A DNA stretch of 64,000 nucleotides from Reticulascus tulasneorum (lineage: Eukaryota; Ascomycota; Sordariomycetes; Glomerellales; Reticulascaceae): contig LSAX01000002.1 of the NCBI GenBank assembly GCA_001557505.1, positions 2,356,001 to 2,420,000 of the forward strand, in the 5' to 3' direction. Shown in pieces: positions 53,762-64,000 of the stretch. The number at the start of each line of letters is the position of its first letter. The stretch's first letter is position 1. The notes under the pieces are model-generated. The model did not search any database, was not told the origin of the DNA, and worked only from the letters and a program-made list of their open reading frames with translations. A program made the translations under genes and the position numbers.

Positions 53762-54307
53762 GTAGGGGGTCGGGGGATTTGCAGATCAGAACTGCGTCTT
53801 TAATTCCTGATATTACTTGTAATCGATGACTCAAGATTGGCGGGGTTTGTCCAAATGTGACACAGGATAGGGCACTTATTGCAGATATAGTTATGGACAT
53901 TGGACATGGAACCCATGGAGTGTGTAGATGGGCTTGAATGTAATCTTATGAATGAATGGCTTATGGCAAATGGGGGTTGTGCGTTTCGCAGATACCGAAT
54001 ATCATTATTCATGATAAGTAACGACTTTCCCCTCGTCCTTCAGTCTTTCACAATACATATCCTCTCTATCTTGTCTATATGTAAGAGAGCTTTCCCTCCC
54101 CAAGCTTTCTTGTGTAATTCAGGTGAGGGGGAGGCCGTTATCGATAAAGCAAATAGCTTGCCATAAATTCCGCTAAGCCCAAAGCAGGATTGCGGGGAGG
54201 CGGTGGGGGATGGCAATAACTTTTATTTCTTAAGAGGCTTCAAGATGTAATTGAAAGATGCTGCACCTGCATGTGAGAATTGGACATAATCCTCTCAAGC
54301 ACCAAAA
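53762..54307. promoter_or_regulatory. Tao3 3' region and URB1 promoter
   Basis: 546 bp separate two co-directional genes. An upstream out-of-frame ATG lies at 54258, 50 nt before the URB1 start. I see no PAC or RRPE ribosome-biogenesis element that I would trust. Confidence 0.55.
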
Positions 54308-57300
54308 ATGCCTAAACGACACTCCCACGGCCCAGATGGCCAAACACCCTTCAGAAAAAGGCAAAAGGTTGTCCATGAAGCGCCTACCTCGGAAGAAGTC
54401 CACACAGCTCGGCAGCTTCGACAGCTGCTCACGTTCGACCAAGATGTGCGCCGCGCACGGCATGGTAAGCGAATATGAGCCCATTTGGGAAGCGCAGCTA
54501 GCTTACAGACTCAATACAGGACTGCAGTCTTTCAAAGTCTTTCTCGATGGCCTTGGTACAGCCGACGAGGGCCGCAGAGAACGACTAGACCTTCTCACCG
54601 AGTATCTGGAGGCAGCGACACCGAGAGACACGAGCAGCGATGCGGTCTATCTTACGGACATAATGGATATGTGGGTATATGCTTCCGATGTCAGCAATGA
54701 CAGCATTCTTTCAGCCGTACCGGCTGTTCTAGCTCTTTTGGTGCAAACCATATCGAGCTCCATGGACCTCCTGCCACACGCATTGGGGATTTGCCAAACT
54801 CTCTTGCGAGAACGGCAGCAAAAGCTCATATCCAAGAATCTCTCGGCCTCCAAAGGAAGCGGATTCATCATATCTCCAACATTGAGACTGCTCAGAGAGA
54901 TGGTGTGTCTCGATGGTGGTGTGCTTGCAAAGCGGGTGTTTCGAGCCCGAGACTTCACTTTGGCCAGCCTGGCTCGGAACTTAGAGATCAAGCATGGTAC
55001 TGAAGGAGTTGAGGATGTGACGAAGCCTTCAGTGCGAACAAATTCGATCAGATTGTTGTTGAGTTTTCTTAAGTACCTCAACTCCGACGGAAAAAAGGAA
55101 CTTTTAATGCAGAAAGAGGTGTTCTCACACTTGACCTTTCTCATTAAGGATGATCCGCCTTATCTACTCTTGGAGATGTTTGAGATTCTGAAAAAACACG
55201 TCTTGGTAGACGACAAACTCCCTCGCGAGGTCAAATTCAGGACCTTCAACACCAAGACCCTGGACCGACTTGCCGCTCTGTACAACTACAGGCACGACGT
55301 AGAAGGAGACGGGAAACCTTCGGTGAAAGATTCTGTGCACGGATTCCTAATGCATACTTGCACCACTCCAGGAGCCGGCATTCTATACTCGGGGACTGGC
55401 TTGTACCCAAGGGACCTTGAACAAGAGAATCTGCAGTACAGAAAGAGCGGGGATGACTCTGGTCTGGAGCATATCGCCTGGATGGATAAGTTCAAGGATG
55501 AGCTACCTGTTTCGAACTTTGTTCTGTCGGAGTTCATCCAAAAGTTGCGACCTTGGTCCAGTATGAAACACAGTGAGCTGCTTGTGGCCATCTTCGCGGC
55601 GGCCCCTGAACTACTGGCAAGCTACTTCTTGAATAACAAATCATTCTCGTTCGAGCCAAAGCTGTCAATGACGTGGCTTGGATATGCAGCATTCCTCTTC
55701 AACACCATACAATTGCCCATACCGGCATATTTTGGACACAAATCAACTTACGCAAAAGTCCCTCCCCCAACATCCATCACGCTTGACAACATCATACCAT
55801 TACCACTAAAGCAAAAGGACCTCGTCAGGTGTCTAAGCTACAAGTCCAACCTCGTTTCCTTCTTTGCGATCCGAATTCTTGTTCTGGCAATACAGAAGTT
55901 AGAAAAAGCACTTCGAATGCACAAGGAGGCCGCTCAAGAAGGAAATCGGACGCTCTGGGATAACGCGGCACGAAGGTTAGTTGACGAGTTTTGTCAAAGA
56001 ATACCGGATATGAAGGAGGTGATTAAATGCTATAAATCGACATCAGACGACAGCGTTCTCCAAAGAGAGGCAGCAAGTAGTCTTTTACAGCTGTACTACG
56101 GCGTCGTTCCCCAACTGGCTCTTATGGCAAATTTCGACGTGTCACCTTTCCTCGTAAGTGCGCTTGGTCGACTTCAGAAACAGAGAGAAGACCCCAAGGA
56201 CCAAGCTCTTAGTTTGATGGAGTTGGAGAACTTGCTCGTCATAGCGGGCTTCTCACCGGGAATGAGATGGTTTGCCAAGGCTGACGGCTTGCTTACATCT
56301 CCTTTCATTGCCTTGCTAAGGGTCATGGATAGAGCACCCGAAGGGGTCTCTTTGTCAAGACTCGAGGAGGTGCTAAACTCTATTGCGTTGCAAAACCAAC
56401 TGATCCTGAAAAGCACAGGATTGGCGCCTCTGTATGAGGTCACTCGAAAATTGGCGCAATCCGATCCAGGCATCGATTTGGAACCTGTGTGGGCTTTCCT
56501 CGACAACTGCGTGAATCGGTGTGCCAGTTCACCCCTGAAGTATTTAGATCTCCTGCAACAGCTCGCCGAAGAATTGCCCGCCGAGCGCGGGATAAAAGAA
56601 GTTGATGGAGCTTCTGTTAGCTTGATCATTCTTACTATGACGGAACAGCTACCCTTCGTTGCTGGAGCAGGGGCAGCTGAAGACAACCGGCACACATTTG
56701 CCAGATTTATATCCATATTTATCACTTTTGCACGAGAATCGGATGAGGATGGGCAGGTTTTAGACATGGTCGCCAAGAACATGAATCGGTCGTACAGCAC
56801 GGAACCGGATATGTCTACGATAGACTCACACGACCCCGTCGGCATCTTTCTTGCCGGTACCGTGAAGCGGCAACAGAGCAGTAAGGCCTCCGAGGCAGCG
56901 GGTGCCGATGGAGTTGATGCCTCAGAAATACCGCGGCCGAGCCTGCATGAAATCAATGACACCGTTCTTGAGGATATGCTTAACGTACCGTTTTCGTCCG
57001 AAAGAGACAATGCGGCGTTACTCAAATGGAGCTCCAAGGAAGTGGATGATCTCGTCGAAGAGGGGCACGCGGCTGCTCTAATACGTTTACTATTGTCGGA
57101 GCATTTTAGTATTCGCCAAGAAGCCCTTACAAACATCTTGAAGATGGCAGCTAAAATTCGCGAGTCCTCATATGAAGAGAAGGACCAAATATGGCTACTA
57201 CTTTCGGAGCTAGCGGAATCATCAAGAGGACAGGTCACTCATGGCCCTGTACCATCTGCACTTGTGGCGTTCGCCATCCACAGTCTGGAAGTGCTTAGGA

Positions 57301-57797
57301 ATCCGACACATTGTCTGTATCCGAAAGTGAACAGCTTCCTCACTCGTGGGCCTGTCTGGGCATCTGACAAACTTCCACTCGCTCACGATATTTTCCACGG
57401 CGAGCCATCTGATGATGACAAGTACTACGCCGAGCTCAGCTGGCTGCTATCCTACCTTCTTGATGCCCTCCGCACCACGGCAGATCTTTCGACGTTCCAT
57501 ACCAAGAAATGGTTCGAGAAGATCTTCGCCCTTGCAGGTAATCCGTATCTTCGAGCAAATCTGAGAAACCGAATACTGAAGATATTGTACCGGGCTACCT
57601 GCATTGAAGGAGGAAGCACCACCCTGGTCACAAGATTCGGGATTATGAGCTGGCTGGAGACCCAAAAAGCTGGCTGTGAGAGCATTGAAGATGAGGCCGT
57701 GTATAAAGCTCTAATGAGGCGTGTGTGGATCACTTGCGACCAGAAGAGGGTTGCTGAGTGGAGCAAGCACAGCATACCGGATTCTCTGGTCTCCTGA
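54308..57797 (+). CDS. URB1: 60S ribosome assembly factor URB1/Npa1
   Basis: Nucleolar scaffold of the earliest pre-60S particles, part of the Npa1 complex acting on 27S rRNA. Two exons: 54308-54464 and 54520-57797; the intron is 55 nt. The total is 3435 nt, giving 1144 residues. The first exon opens with a basic, nuclear-type stretch (MPKRHSHG, then FRKRQKVV) and QLRQLLTFDQDVRRARHG, which joins to LQSFKVFLDGL. The N-terminal URB1 domain (about residues 55-390) and the C-terminal domain with SSKEVDDLVEEGHAAALIRL are recognisable, with helical repeats between. I prefer the ATG at 54308 over an upstream ATG at 54258. The latter reaches the second exon only by reading through the intron in the wrong upstream frame. 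Convincing by family length and motifs. Confidence 0.92.
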
Positions 57798-59707
57798 TTA
57801 AATAGCTTTCGATAAAGGAGAGTGTGCCCCGAAGCAAAGCATCAAGCTCAGGACAAGGCATCTTACATCAGAGGCATCATCCTCTCGCATAGCTGTGTTT
57901 TCGTTTCGCCCGCTTGTTTAGTTACACGACCCGCTCAAAGCGTTGACTTGGGGATTCCTTGAGCCCAGCGGGGTATTCCAGCATTCTGGAGATTCGTTGG
58001 CTTGGACATCGTCATGATCTTGCCACCCTAGGGTGAAGATGCCGTACTACCCTGGTCGGGGGCGCCGTGGCATGAGGGCTTCAACACACGGGAGCCTCAG
58101 CTCTGAGAGCAGGGCGATGGAGTTTGCGGTGCCCACTCCAGGAGAATAGAGCGGACCCAGACAGACAAATGGGAGTTGCTCTGGGGTGTATTTGAGTATC
58201 TACCGTGGGTATGAGTTTGGGACGCATAATGAGGCGAGATATCACGGACATATGAAGGAAATGTATGTGTGAGTGTCAGTGCCTACCCCTTTATAATACT
58301 CGAAATGCACGAAAGTTTCTGGTCACACTTTTGTTTGCCTGGACAAGCCCAGGAGATTAGGTGGCTAGAAACACGACATGACAGACACAACTTTCCCAAT
58401 TTCCGTTTGAGACCCTTGAATTGCCAACCACGGCCAGCTGCAGGGCAATAATAGCTTTGGCCTCCGCTCCGGAAGTTGGCCTGAGGGAGCGTGCAAGACA
58501 TGACATGACAGGTAGCAAAGTATGGAGACGAGGGGTTTATCTCGATTTGTTGTACACGTGCAACTCTCAACACACACAGCGATGACTACTTGCCCGTTAG
58601 GGTAGGGATATTCAGGCCTGCTACGCATCGGGCACTTGGAGAAGCCAAGGCATTGCGCGATGGAGGTTGCCGAGAGGGATGTTCCAGCCAAGCAGCCAAA
58701 CAACCCTACAATTTTACGACACACGGGAGAGGGTTGGTTGTGAATGCGGACCGGGTTGGGAGCCTGAGTATCGTAGCCGAGAGCACCGGGGTTGTCCAAA
58801 GGGGGAGCCATAGCTTGAGAAAGGTACCCGTGACCTATTCAAGGCAGCATACAGCCTAGCTATAATTGCAAGGCACCGCTAGAACTGCCCGTCCCTAGGT
58901 ATGCTTCCACTGCATGCCGGTGCCTTAACTCGGTGGCTTGTCCCTCTCTGGGGCGTATACTTATGGCAACCTACAGCGGTCATTCAGCAGTGCAGTGACC
59001 ACCTATTTGGCCCTGTGACCGTGCCTCGCCATGCGGCTAGGTACAATTTGTAGGGGTATCCATTCAGCAGCATACTGGTAAGAGAGGTACTTTACCATCA
59101 AGTAGAATGGCCGGCCAGCCAGCCCGCGCCCCCCCTGCCTGCCTTCCATATTATTGCTTGCTTGACCCCCCCTGGTTCACCTTTCACCTCAAGGTTTTTG
59201 GGAAAGCACCGTCCGATCAATCGGTGCAGTGCAGTGCAGTGTTGTCTCGTCTCCAACAAAAACCTCCCTTTGACCTCTTATTCGTACTCAAAACTTGATC
59301 CGACGTTCACCACTCGCATTCCTGTCCCCTCATCATACCACTTCCACCGCGCAGTATCTTATCATCTCCGCAACCCAAAAATTCCTTATCGATATTCCCA
59401 TCTCATCTCCATTGTTCCCCGTCAACAACTGTCAGGCAGTGCGACTGGTGCCTGACTACATACATCCAGTACCTTCTCTCGACTCGCCCGACCATCACCT
59501 TTTCCCATACGACCTACCTCGACCTCGACTCTTTGCCTGCCTCATCTCACACCTTCACCTTCGTCACCCTCTCTTGGCGCTCCAACTTCCCCGCAATCAA
59601 TCTTCGTGCTCGGCCTGCCTCGATTGCTACCTGCGCATGCGAGTCTTGTCGTCGGTGCAAATCCTCTAGCCACAGCCTTCAGATGCGCCTTGCATCCTCT
59701 CTCTATT
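57798..59707 (+). promoter_or_regulatory. promoter and pyrimidine-rich leader of the 4E-T-like gene
   Basis: About 1.9 kb separate URB1 from the next start codon. From about 59240 to 59700 the plus strand is strongly CT-rich, as in many fungal promoters and leaders. Three perfect tandem copies of GTGCA lie at 59224-59238. Two short ORFs precede the main start (59637-59669 and 59683-59796). The part from 57798 to about 59200 shows no gene. Confidence 0.6.
59637..59669 (+). other. upstream ORF 1 of the 4E-T-like gene
   Basis: ATG through TAG encodes ten residues, ending 38 nt before the main ATG. It matters only if transcription starts upstream of it, which the CT-rich leader suggests but does not prove. 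Confidence 0.4.
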
Positions 59708-59796
59708 ATGGCCGTCCGTTACTCTGCAGAAGTCCTCCTTCATTTACGAGAGTCGCCGTTATGTACCAAGCCAAGCAACCTTCCGGCACCAGATGA
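59683..59796 (+). other. upstream ORF 2 overlapping the main start
   Basis: A 37-codon frame begins 25 nt before the main ATG, in a different frame, and ends inside the first coding exon. Its start context is weak (C at -3), so leaky scanning to the main ATG (A at -3, G at +4) would be expected. Confidence 0.4.
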
Positions 59797-62191
59797 GTGG
59801 ATGGGGTAAGAACACAACAACAGCAAGAAGAAAACAAAGGGGAACAGGACACACATTCTAACAGTCCCCAACAGGCCGCTCCCAGAGAATCCCCGAACCG
59901 CGAACAAGCCCACCACAGACAGACGTACCCAAGACAACCCCTTACTGGACTCGACAAACCGGCGCCCTGGCTTAGAATCCAGGCATGTATCGCGCAACAG
60001 TGCAAGTACGTTTAATTTTTGTGATTGACCCCTTGAAGGCCTGTGCCGGTTACTGACTCCGTCATTTTTTTTCAAAGACCCTGAAGATATAATTCTTGGT
60101 CCTCCAAGAACTGCATTTGCGTCGGCCACACTTCGAAACACCAACACCGCCAAGGCCTACGAGAATGAGAAGGGGATTAAGGATCCGGATCCTCGGAACC
60201 GTTTCGACTTCCGCAATCGGAATGGCGAAGCAGAAGGGACTGACCGAATTCAAAACCCGAGAGCGAATGCTTTCCGCCGCCGCGGCGACGCCGATCAAGA
60301 CACTGAGGGCTGGAGCACGGTGAAGCCTCGCAAGAGCTTTGGGCATGAAGGTGCTGAGCGCTTCCATGGTCGAATGGGTGGAGGCGGTGTCGACAGATTT
60401 CCCAACGATCGGAGACCTCGAGAGAAAGAAGAACGTGAGGCTCCTAGGGACCGACGAACATTTGATACCTTCAACAAGGAAAAGGAGAGTGAGGAGCCCG
60501 AAGTTCGCCCACGGAATGGCCTCAACAGGGGTAAATCCGAGCCATGGTATAAAGGTGAAGAAGAGCATCCTCCTCCCATGACGGCACGTGAGCGCATCGA
60601 CCGAGCGAAGAGCTGGAGAGACAGGGACAAGGAAGCTGAGACATCCGAGCCGAGGGCCAACGAGAGAACCAGCGAGAGAGCCAACGAGAGAACCAACGAG
60701 AGACAATATGAGCGTCGATGGGACAGGGACCAGGGCCGTCGGGTCGAGAAAGAGCCCGAATGGTTTGACGAACCTGCCGAGGACAAGGCTAGCGGTCACA
60801 CTGAAGAAGATTTCAAGAAGTTCATGGAGAGTATGAAGGCTAGCCGAAATGTTCCTTCTCACGATGATAAGGCTGCAGCTATTAGTGCAGCAGAAGCTGC
60901 GATTGAAGCTGCAAGGCCAGCAGTCGTGTCGGCCCCAGCTCTCGAAGCCGGCCCCGACAAGTTCTTCATGGCCTTTGCATCCAATTCTGGTCTGGATGTC
61001 GGAGGCTCTTCGGCTCCAGATGCGAAAAAGGATACGTCAAACAAAGGGAAGTCAGGAGCAAAGTCGTCTCGATTCACCTCCTTCTTCCACACGCCACAGG
61101 AGGATATTGGTAGGCGCCTACAGACAGAGCCTCCCACACCTCTAGCCGGTCCTCCTCCACCGAATGGCAACGGTATGAGCCCACCACCGGACGCGGGTGA
61201 GAAGGAGGCTTTCCAAGCCCTGCTCATGAAGCTTCAGCGCCAGACATTCCAGACAAACCCGACACCACCAGCTCCTCAGGCGTTCCAGCAGCCTCCACCG
61301 CCACAAGATGCACCGATGAAGAACGCAATTATATCCCCAGAACCATATCACCAATATGGGGCCGAACGACGGGATGATCCACGCATGCGACACCCGCAAC
61401 CACCGATGCATGAGATACTGGCTCCTCGTCCAATGATGCCGGCTCAGCCACCCCAACTTCGCCAGGATCAACTGCTTCAAGAGCTTGTAGGCCAGCGACA
61501 CCACGCTCCCAGCCAGGGTTCTGGGAGAATCGAGTCGAATCCAGGTCGCAATACCAGTAACACTGAGTTTTTGATGAACCTAATGAGAGCCGCGCCAGAA
61601 CCACCTCGTGCGGAGCAGCTACATATGCGTATGCCTCAGCCACAGAGGACTGCGCAGATCCCCCATCCCCAGGAGCGTGAGCCCGAGTTCCCTCGAGAGG
61701 CTAGAGGATCTCAACGTCAAATGCGCTCGCAACCGCCACCCGGTTTCATGGACGAGCCAATGTACCATCCCGAACAAGACCACGGTCCTCAGCCTACTCA
61801 GATCCTTCGTCGCCCACCACCACCGCCAGGTTTGGATCAGATGAACCCCAACTGGATGCCGGGTGGAGGGCCGATCCCCCCTCAACGATCTATGATTCCA
61901 CCTCCCGGCCTAGCAGGTGGACCAAACCGTAACATGCCAATGCCAGGCATGTTCCCTCCAAACTTCCCACCAGGCGGCTTCCCTCCTCCCGATAGCATGG
62001 TCGGGCCACCACGCAACATGCAACCTCCACCAGGCTTCTTTGGCGGTCCTCCACCGCCGGGTTTCATCCCACCACCTGGAATGGGTGGGTATCAGGGCCT
62101 TCCCGGTCCGGATAGTCACGGCTTCGGCTCTCCCTTTGATGGGCGTGGAATGCCCCCTCCCGGTGCAGCTCAAGCGTTCAGGAGACAGTAA
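59708..62191 (+). CDS. 4E-T-like eIF4E-binding protein (probable translational repressor)
   Basis: Probable fungal counterpart of 4E-T (EIF4ENIF1), which binds cap-binding eIF4E and links mRNAs to repression and decay in P-bodies. Three exons: 59708-59805, 59875-60005, 60078-62191; introns of 69 and 72 nt. The total is 2343 nt, giving 780 residues. Residues 5-11 (YSAEVLL) match the canonical eIF4E-binding motif Y-x4-L-hydrophobic. It is followed by ESPLCTKPSNLPAPDEWMG. Later segments line up in order with 4E-T-type features: GWSTVKPRKSFG (about 154), EPEWF (about 302), PDKFFMAFA (about 369) and SRFTSFFHTPQED (about 407). The last 250 residues are Pro/Met/Gly-rich and disordered. Tandem NER-type repeats lie near residues 270-285. 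The motif is seen directly; the orthology is my inference from motif order. Confidence 0.85.
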
Positions 62192-62990: not shown

Positions 62991-64000
62991 TTACGACTTC
63001 TTCATGCCCAAGAAGTTCCGCCGCTTTTTCTCCTTCTCTAACTTGTGCGGCTTGTCTCCCGAAGGAGCTGGATAGTCCCCGCCATTGCTGGCTATTACGG
63101 GCTGGGGGTTGAGCGCCATATTCCCCATCTGCGCCGTCGGGGGCACCGGGCGACTGGGTAGCCCGCCTGGCGGGGGATTTCGCCGGCCGGGGTTGGCCGC
63201 ACCAAGGGGCATTCTCTGTTGAGGGGGACCAGGGGGACCAGGAGCACGGCCTGCTGGAACGACCGGGGGGGCGGGACGCTCGAAGATGTGGTCTGGCGCT
63301 CTGGGCTTGGGGCGTTCCATCGGGAGATCAAGGCGGCGCTTGTCGACGCTCAGGTCGCCGACCTGGCGAACGAAGAGCTGGGGAGTGATCATGTGGCTGG
63401 TGGCGAGGAAGATATCCTTGCCGTTGCGGGCCGAGACCTCGTAGCACGTCCTGCTTTCGCTGTATGTGGCGCCGCCAGCCATGAAGACGATGAAGCGCTG
63501 ACGGTTCTCTGGCGGTCGTCGGCCAGCAGTAGCCCAGCCCGGTCTGCCGGCGCGGAGTGAGGTGCCCTGGGACGCGAGAAGATCCTCGTTGGGGTCTGTT
63601 GGTGGCTTCACGTAGGGGAAGGTCGTTTGGTCGAGGGTGCCCTTGCTCAGTTCTTCAAGCATATCCTTCATGGCCGGCTCGAAGCGGGACAGGGCGTATT
63701 CCTCGCTCAGCTGCGCGTTCTTCACGTTTTTAGGGAATAGGGGTAGGGGTGGTGGTCTGGTCTCCTTGAGACCATGGACCGGCCGTGCGCCGAGGAGCTC
63801 CAGATTAGTTATTATTTCGGCGTCTTGTGCTGGTAGTGCCGAATGGGCCAGCAGTCGGTTGATATCCTCCAGGATAACACCGTCCCGGTATAGGATATAC
63901 ATTGCGACGAGTCGTAACCGATCGGGGGGGACAATTGCCTCGTCGTCTAGTAGACTGGCAACTTGCTCTAAAATATTTTTTGGCTTCCTGAAGTCTTCAT
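62991..64000 (-). CDS. SEC1: Sec1-family exocytosis protein, C-terminal part (partial)
   Basis: SM protein that binds the exocytic SNARE complex at the plasma membrane and promotes fusion of secretory vesicles. Only the last 336 codons lie in the window. The frame is open to the right edge, so the ATG near 63902 is internal and the start is outside. The domain-3 end is clear: PPDRLRLVAMYILYRDGV, then ITNLELLGARP and the conserved YVKPP and RFIVFMAGGATYSE segments. ILLxT-type strands follow (DIFLATSHMITPQLFV). The last 110 or so residues form a Pro/Arg-rich extension ending in a strongly basic KEKKRRNFLGMKKS. In yeast Sec1 a basic C-terminal tail contributes to SNARE-complex binding, so a similar role is plausible here. 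Confidence 0.9.
   Translation of the reverse strand, partial: EDFRKPKNILEQVASLLDDEAIVPPDRLRLVAMYILYRDGVILEDINRLLAHSALPAQDAEIITNLELLGARPVHGLKETRPPPLPLFPKNVKNAQLSEEYALSRFEPAMKDMLEELSKGTLDQTTFPYVKPPTDPNEDLLASQGTSLRAGRPGWATAGRRPPENRQRFIVFMAGGATYSESRTCYEVSARNGKDIFLATSHMITPQLFVRQVGDLSVDKRRLDLPMERPKPRAPDHIFERPAPPVVPAGRAPGPPGPPQQRMPLGAANPGRRNPPPGGLPSRPVPPTAQMGNMALNPQPVIASNGGDYPAPSGDKPHKLEKEKKRRNFLGMKKS

Follow-up and report, generated by a model that had tools for sequence, protein, structure and literature searches.

Identification of a putative Eap1 gene

The 64,000-nucleotide window (the whole stretch of DNA analysed) carries, at 59708..62191 on the forward strand, a three-exon gene whose 780-residue product, judged from its sequence, is most likely the filamentous-fungal (Sordariomycete) form of Eap1, an eIF4E-binding scaffold. 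The product is probably also a remote homologue of animal 4E-T, a relationship that is supported though unproven. The protein matched the Pfam family PF20566 (“Eap1, eIF4E-associated protein”) with an E-value of 3.8e-275 and 916.1 bits (cut-off 28), over profile positions 1-751 of 751 and protein residues 13-773, and was the only PF20566 match in the 42.8-Mb genome. It is an ordinary member of an already known family, and the grouping of these fungal proteins with Eap1 had already been made by the Pfam curators. The original prediction had labelled the protein “4E-T-like”, which captured a collinear resemblance and overlooked the catalogued membership in PF20566; Eap1 is the better label, because the protein already falls in a curated, named family.

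Homologues numbered 347 at E<=1e-3, and all motif counts given below refer to the 120 of these that were listed, every one of which carries PF20566 in its precomputed domains. The closest among the matches listed were from Colletotrichum (P0001-P0007, 62-66% identity), and the named records among them are mostly called hypothetical or uncharacterized; the present assignment offers a likely role for this protein. The fungal profile was built from the window protein and the 98 of 120 listed homologues with RYx4L near the N-terminus; six of the 22 left outside were Colletotrichum sequences with QY for RY. The protein is long and, from its composition, probably disordered. A Pfam AROS match (0.084) fell under the AROS cut-off and was rejected.

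Gene model and N-terminal eIF4E-binding motif

The gene consists of the following parts:

59708..59805, forward strand: exon 1, coding part, 98 nt, from the start codon to MG
59806..59874, forward strand: intron 1, GTAAGA...CAG, with an in-frame stop if retained
59875..60005, forward strand: exon 2, 131 nt, both junctions flanked by conserved residues
60006..60077, forward strand: intron 2, GTACGT...AAG
60078..62191, forward strand: exon 3, 2114 nt, stop codon at 62189-62191

Translation of the three exons gave a coding sequence of 2343 nt (780 aa and the stop) with an uninterrupted frame to 62191, GT/AG borders at both introns and the frame kept across both joins, which reproduced the coordinates, exon lengths, splice borders, frame, stop and length originally predicted. 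The start codon has A at -3 and G at +4; upstream of it the frame is open back to an in-frame stop at 59453, with no further in-frame ATG between. Exon 1 can be joined solely by splicing, because retention of intron 1 places a stop codon immediately behind MG. The N-terminus of the homologues (MA.RY....L..LR.SPLC.kP..LPPaEEWMG) is the same as here and reaches over the first exon junction, and the three-exon model appears to be correct. Two ATG frames were also observed in the leader, a uORF of 10 codons (59637-59669) and one of 37 codons (59683-59796) that overlaps the start codon; both could damp translation if the transcript begins upstream of them.

The segments of the protein considered in this work were:

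59720..59740, forward strand: YSAEVLL, residues 5-11, candidate canonical eIF4E-binding motif (from sequence and homologue conservation)
59780..59805, forward strand: LPAPDEWMG, residues 25-33, candidate non-canonical eIF4E contact, conserved as LPPaEEWMG
60086..60118, forward strand: DIILGPPRTAF, residues 80-90, like DVVLSPQRRSF of 4E-T (block test, chain and alignments)
60308..60352, forward strand: GWSTVKPRKSFGHEG (also GWSTVKPRKSFG.EGAERF), residues 154-168, top-scoring conserved block of the family
60752..60823, forward strand: EPEW ... HTEEDFKKF, residues 302-325, proposed bipartite Dhh1/DDX6-binding site (from motif conservation)
60953..60967, forward strand: PDKFF, residues 369-373, conserved in the family and originally proposed as counterpart of 4E-T motif II
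61067..61105, forward strand: SRFTSFFHTPQED, residues 407-419, like SRFSRWF and the following STPHEE of 4E-T and like SRFSSFF of yeast Eap1
61472..61495, forward strand: LLQELVGQ, residues 542-549, like ILQELLG of 4E-T and a member of the 4E-T chains
61733..62083, forward strand: six PPG[FLM] motifs, residues 629-745, candidate Smy2-type GYF ligands (from motif count and the published ligand rule)

YSAEVLL, predicted at residue 5 as an instance of Y-x4-L-hydrophobic, was recovered in the spliced translation; the PF20566 match leaves it out because that match begins at residue 13. Of 10000 shuffles of this protein, 11 showed the pattern within the first 25 residues and 485 showed it anywhere. 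Conservation among the homologous sequences is stronger evidence than these shuffle statistics: Y-x4-L precedes an S-x-LC block in 107 of 120 listed homologues, followed by L, I, V, M or F in 100 of them and by T, R, K or Y in 7. In the homologue alignment the flanks of the motif are conserved and its four inner residues are variable, the pattern expected of a linear motif. Together with the PF20566 match, this conservation supports the class originally proposed, that of an eIF4E-binding protein.

The motif was not shown in 13 of 120 listed homologues: ten metagenome or JGI models (P0014, P0017, P0023, P0034, P0036, P0066, P0081, P0084, P0089 and P0116) and three NCBI-named records (P0008, P0086 and P0117), the last of which still has the S-x-LC block further in. 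The warning that gene models missing exon 1 lose the motif therefore holds for this minority. Exon 1 might be unused and YSAEVLL a chance reading of leader sequence, as the two ATGs ahead of the start, one with a frame overlapping it, and the 13 homologue models that miss the segment would allow; this is very improbable, however, given that 107 of 120 homologues share the N-terminus and its conserved flanks.

The last codon of LPAPDEWMG is split over intron 1, and the segment may form a second contact with eIF4E. A PDB search with the N-terminal 40 residues returned zero matches. With the full protein, just two weak matches (LlaGI/LlaBIII, E 0.52 and 0.65) were obtained and rejected.

Conserved segments of the protein

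PEW was present in all 120 listed homologues (EPEW in 92), PEW-x(8,22)-[HN][STA]xxDFxx[FWLYM] in 100, DKFF in 110, SRFxx[FWLY]F in 110 and PPG[FLIMV] in 120, with a median of 5 of the last per protein. All five tested marks were present in 89 of 120 and stood in order in 88 of those. As genome-wide evidence EPEW was discarded, its codon pattern occurring at chance frequency (109 sites vs. 105 for the backwards control). The block at 60308-60352 had no significant 4E-T counterpart in the block test and may be a fungus-specific docking site.

Comparison with yeast Eap1

Six proteins (4 named Saccharomyces) made up the Eap1 set, found with a lengthened yeast Eap1 query whose letters were checked against PDB chain 6fc1_B (6fc1 and 6fc2 being the PDB entries for yeast Eap1). 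The Eap1 profile used five of the six, and the block and chain tests P0241 only. PF20566 scored above its cut-off on four of the six (P0241 with E 5.4e-7, P0242, P0243 and P0246), marginally so on yeast Eap1 P0241 (29.5 bits, cut-off 28), with P0244 under the cut-off and P0245 unmatched. The Sordariomycete profile reached E 5.0 on five yeast Eap1 sequences, equal to reversed and shuffled controls; the Eap1 profile gave nothing at E<=1e-3 on the fungal set, and the best BLASTP E-value of homologue P0001 against P0241 was 0.023. The link to yeast Eap1, and hence the name, thus appears to rest on Pfam's broader model, with a marginal yeast match.

In the block test on P0241, 10 of 20 blocks had p<0.05 vs. 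2 of 20 on its reverse, several of the ten being proline-rich and two (254 and 30) out of order. The clearest pairs were GHTEEDFKKFMESMK vs. GHSIADFEDWKAKMK and KSSRFTSFF vs. SSSRFSSFF, both at the floor of 2000 shuffles. The chain score on P0241 was reached by 0 of 300 shuffles and 1 of 300 block permutations (0 of 60 and 3 of 60 at looser settings).

Yeast Eap1 and the window protein share, in the same order, GH[ST]..DF..[FW]...MK, SRF[ST]SFF and PPPPG[FL], and PPG[FLIMV] occurs at four places in P0241. They differ in the position of the eIF4E motif (residue 109 in yeast vs. 5 here) and in its last place, Tyr in the yeast YSMNELY and Leu in YSAEVLL. PEW is absent from P0241 but present here, and the place of the FWRL contact described for yeast Eap1 in part of the text of PMC8558276 is taken here by the short LP..EW segment.

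Comparison with animal 4E-T

Animal 4E-T (EIF4ENIF1) links cap-bound eIF4E with the repression and decapping machinery. It was represented by 120 listed animal proteins, the named ones tetrapods; the 4E-T profile was built from the 61 of these longer than 930 aa, and the null-tested block and chain runs used two sequences, P0121 and P0201 (for P0154 a chain was computed with no null). Like the window protein, 4E-T carries collinearly Y-x4-L-hydrophobic, EPEWF, SRFxx[FW]F with TP[HQ]E[ED], and LQEL[LV]G, and the flank of its N-terminal motif is alignable up to DVVLSPQRRSF. In contrast, the window protein has six PPG-hydrophobic motifs vs. one in P0121, DFxxF where 4E-T has IEL/FDD, no PF10477 match and no WFG. 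The last characterizes the LSM14-binding C-terminus in 4E-T (PDB chain 6f9w, the LSM14-binding segment, matches P0121 970-1002) and was found in 1 of 120 listed fungal homologues.

The profile search against the 4E-T family that had been proposed as a check gave two answers. The Pfam 4E-T model PF10477 had zero matches to the protein at E<=10 and zero in the whole genome, the controls there being silent too. The protein's own family profile, with filters off, found 46 of the 120 listed 4E-T proteins at E<=10, 14 of them at E<=1e-3, the best (E 1e-5, P0201 residues 134-374) with an alignment that covers EPEW and SRF. At E<=10 the reversed 4E-T set gave 3 matches, the best with E 1.1, and each of five locally shuffled sets gave 8-10, the best with E 0.021; neither control had any at E<=1e-3. 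The reciprocal search of the fungal proteins with the 4E-T profile gave a best E of 0.13, and BLASTP against 4E-T a best E of 0.10 with the window protein and 2.6 with yeast Eap1. The Eap1 profile reached 2.2 on 4E-T and scored at least as well on the controls, with 1.1 on reversed and 0.06 on shuffled sets.

Chains of ungapped matches scored 29.5 on P0121, a value that none of 300 local shuffles and none of 300 block permutations attained, and 29.5 on P0201 too, where one local shuffle of 300 and no block permutation of 300 attained it. Reversed sequences scored 12.4 and 10.9, and six long window frames at most 17.1. At looser settings the P0121 chain agreed (0 of 60 and 0 of 60 nulls). The two chains, of eight and nine links, have five links in common. 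Segment by segment, hhalign gave P-values of 6.2e-4 for the N-terminus (90 columns), 5.6e-4 for PEW, 0.0042 for SRF and 0.037 for QEL (reversed segments 0.47, 0.31, 0.14 and 0.36 respectively). Its probabilities were low (28, 30, 8 and 1% for the same segments, 5% for the N-terminal 440 residues), and over the whole length a probability of 41% went with a single match of 25 columns, located at SRF.

Blocks with p<0.05 numbered 7 of 20 on P0121 (Fisher 3.8e-6), 3 of 20 on P0201 (1.0e-3) and 1 of 20 on the reversed sequence (0.22). The remaining 13 and 17 blocks failed, and one of the seven passes on P0121 broke the order (block 222 at 456). Three blocks were significant on both sequences: the N-terminal motif (p 0.003 and 0.0005), PEW (0.0025 and 0.0015; the IEL/FDD of the cup homology domain, CHD, is replaced by DFxxF here) and SRF/TPQED. 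The SRF block landed on STPHEE behind SRFSRWF and not on SRFSRWF itself in the block and chain tests, whereas hhalign and hmmsearch aligned SRFTSFF at 407 to SRFSRWF of 4E-T motif III. DIILGPPRTAF (p 0.037 on P0121, 0.58 on P0201) was part of the P0121 chain and of the hmmsearch and hhalign alignments. The LPAPDEWMG, PDKFF, NTEFLMNLMR and LQEL blocks had no significance on 4E-T: for LPAPDEWMG p was 0.99 on one of the P0121/P0201 pair and 0.67 on the other, for the 15-residue block around LLQELVGQ alone 0.25 and 0.63, and for PDKFF against motif II with its FDF 0.99 and 0.96, the alignment there being only loose.

In the part of PMC5291280 that lists them, the human 4E-T elements are motif I (131-161), CHD (208-245), motif II (291-316) and motif III (331-346). 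PEW falls in the CHD and SRF in motif III; motif I is without a clear counterpart and motif II without support. The original statement that EPEWF, PDKFF and SRF follow one another as in 4E-T is thus borne out for EPEWF and SRF and not for PDKFF.

Homology or convergence

Homology, with the protein as a fungal relative by descent and perhaps an orthologue of 4E-T, has slightly better than even chances; both would descend, with their common array of docking sites, from a single opisthokont ancestor gene. The search with the family profile recovers 4E-T (best 1e-5) with nothing at 1e-3 in reversed or shuffled sets, the chain scores stand above their nulls on both P0121 and P0201, the hhalign segment P-values lie far under the reversed ones, the block test is significant by Fisher on both sequences, and PEW and SRF fall within the CHD and motif III. 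Against it are the absence of PF10477, the low hhalign probabilities, the non-significant reciprocal and BLASTP searches, the failure of most blocks and the mere five links common to the two chains; moreover, all the proteins compared are rich in R/D and P, the common pieces are short, and the listed 4E-T hits used here include no invertebrate sequence.

Somewhat short of an even chance is convergence, in which an unrelated fungal scaffold gained the same linear motifs (for eIF4E, DDX6 and GYF) because it works with the same partners. The motifs are all short, EPEW codons turn up in the genome about as often as chance predicts and, according to the portion of PMC12249416 on this site, GIGYF uses PEW as well. 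Order matters, however, since 0 of 300 block permutations reach the chain score on either 4E-T, and DIILGPPRTAF, SRFxxFF and LQELVG, segments without a partner known to us, are common too. The PEW-type DDX6 site shared with GIGYF1/2 and Smy2 might also suggest a protein of GIGYF/Smy2 type, which is hardly credible: these proteins carry a GYF domain, whereas the Pfam scan found none in the window protein, which has candidate GYF ligands instead, and the GYF domains of the genome lie elsewhere, at two loci (C2:4141994 and C12:2361028).

Proposed mechanism

We consider it quite probable that the protein is a Sordariomycete Eap1 scaffold joining eIF4E, Dhh1 and a GYF adaptor. The sequence establishes the gene model, the family, the motif conservation and the genome's two GYF-domain and three eIF4E loci; every binding step and translational effect is our inference.

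The N-terminus (YSAEVLL, then the LP..EW segment) would bind eIF4E on the surface used by eIF4G, as suggested by the Y-x4-L motif and the yeast precedent, and this grip would control initiation on bound mRNAs, most likely repressing it. The IF4E profile gave five matches at three places in the genome (L004-L008; C15 and C17), so the partner may be eIF4E2/4EHP-like, instead of or besides eIF4E. Caf20/p20 (PF17052) was unmatched in the genome at E<=10, the control genomes being equally silent.

The PEW and DFxxF site would recruit Dhh1 (DDX6), and through Dhh1 repression or decapping factors, as suggested by the PEW motif, whose Trp occupies the W pocket in 4E-T and GIGYF. The acidic residues ahead of the DF pair may matter for NOT1 compatibility. 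The C-terminal PPG-hydrophobic motifs would dock a Smy2-kind GYF adaptor, as suggested by the six PPG[FLM] motifs and the GYF-domain loci in the same genome. Yeast Smy2 binds Eap1 within the SESA complex, in support of which stands the account in PMC9352352 of Syh1, a protein related to Smy2. The passages of PMC12249416 on these contacts give PPG-hydrophobic as the GYF-domain ligand and describe the PEW Trp of 4E-T and GIGYF as entering the W pocket of DDX6/Me31B, with IEL or FDx4F coming after it.

Yeast studies disagree on Eap1 as a repressor. In the relevant passages of PMC3468468, Y109 and L114 of yeast Eap1 are needed for eIF4E binding, Dhh1 is found alongside Eap1 in complex surveys, and Eap1 speeds up decapping of Vts1 targets; Vts1-mediated decay needs Eap1, with Dhh1 described there as not involved. 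Eap1 is a Syh1-associated repressor by the description in PMC9352352, within whose consulted sections EAP1 deletion left a Syh1-dependent no-go decay reporter unchanged and Eap1 was absent from the affinity purification. According to extracts of the review PMC7139794, yeast Eap1 does not inhibit cap-dependent translation and can even act in favour of certain mRNAs, and Dhh1 helps ATG1/ATG13 translation.

Relation to the published view of Eap1 and 4E-T

In the portions of the literature covered, 4E-T is described as metazoan-specific, Eap1 as confined to Saccharomycotina and the two as “not homologs”; yeast p20 and Eap1 are called lineage-specific in a section of PMC8558276. Because papers treat Eap1 and 4E-T as unrelated, a protein with the marks of both is the interesting part. 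Among the matches listed, open-licence titles and abstract openings held no description of a Pezizomycotina Eap1 and no equation of Eap1 with 4E-T. Within the searched text of the N. crassa study PMC10512220 the sole mention of Eap1 sits in a reference title, and the corresponding text of PMC8244596 mentions yeast Eap1 in the introduction and references.

The filamentous-ascomycete form has the N-terminal eIF4E motif, PEW, SRF and candidate GYF ligands all present together. We regard as evenly balanced the proposal that Eap1 of yeast and 4E-T of animals are a single protein of ancient opisthokont origin, with the filamentous-ascomycete form as a revealing intermediate. If this were true, the “metazoan-specific” 4E-T, the Saccharomycotina-confined Eap1 and “not homologs” would all be wrong. 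A conserved filamentous-fungal protein with the marks of both opens the relationship to testing and would provide simple haploid organisms in which to model how 4E-T works.

Neighbouring genes

Two neighbouring genes were recognized in the window:

54258-57797, forward strand: Urb1/Npa1 ribosome-biogenesis protein (PF11707 8.9e-107, PF16201 1.1e-64)
62991-63998, reverse strand: C-terminal part of a Sec1-family protein (PF00995 1.5e-28 on 62991-63902), whose frame leaves the window edge

The Pleurostoma homologue P0009 of the window protein bears the name “Ribosome biogenesis protein Urb1”, perhaps carried over from the neighbouring gene.
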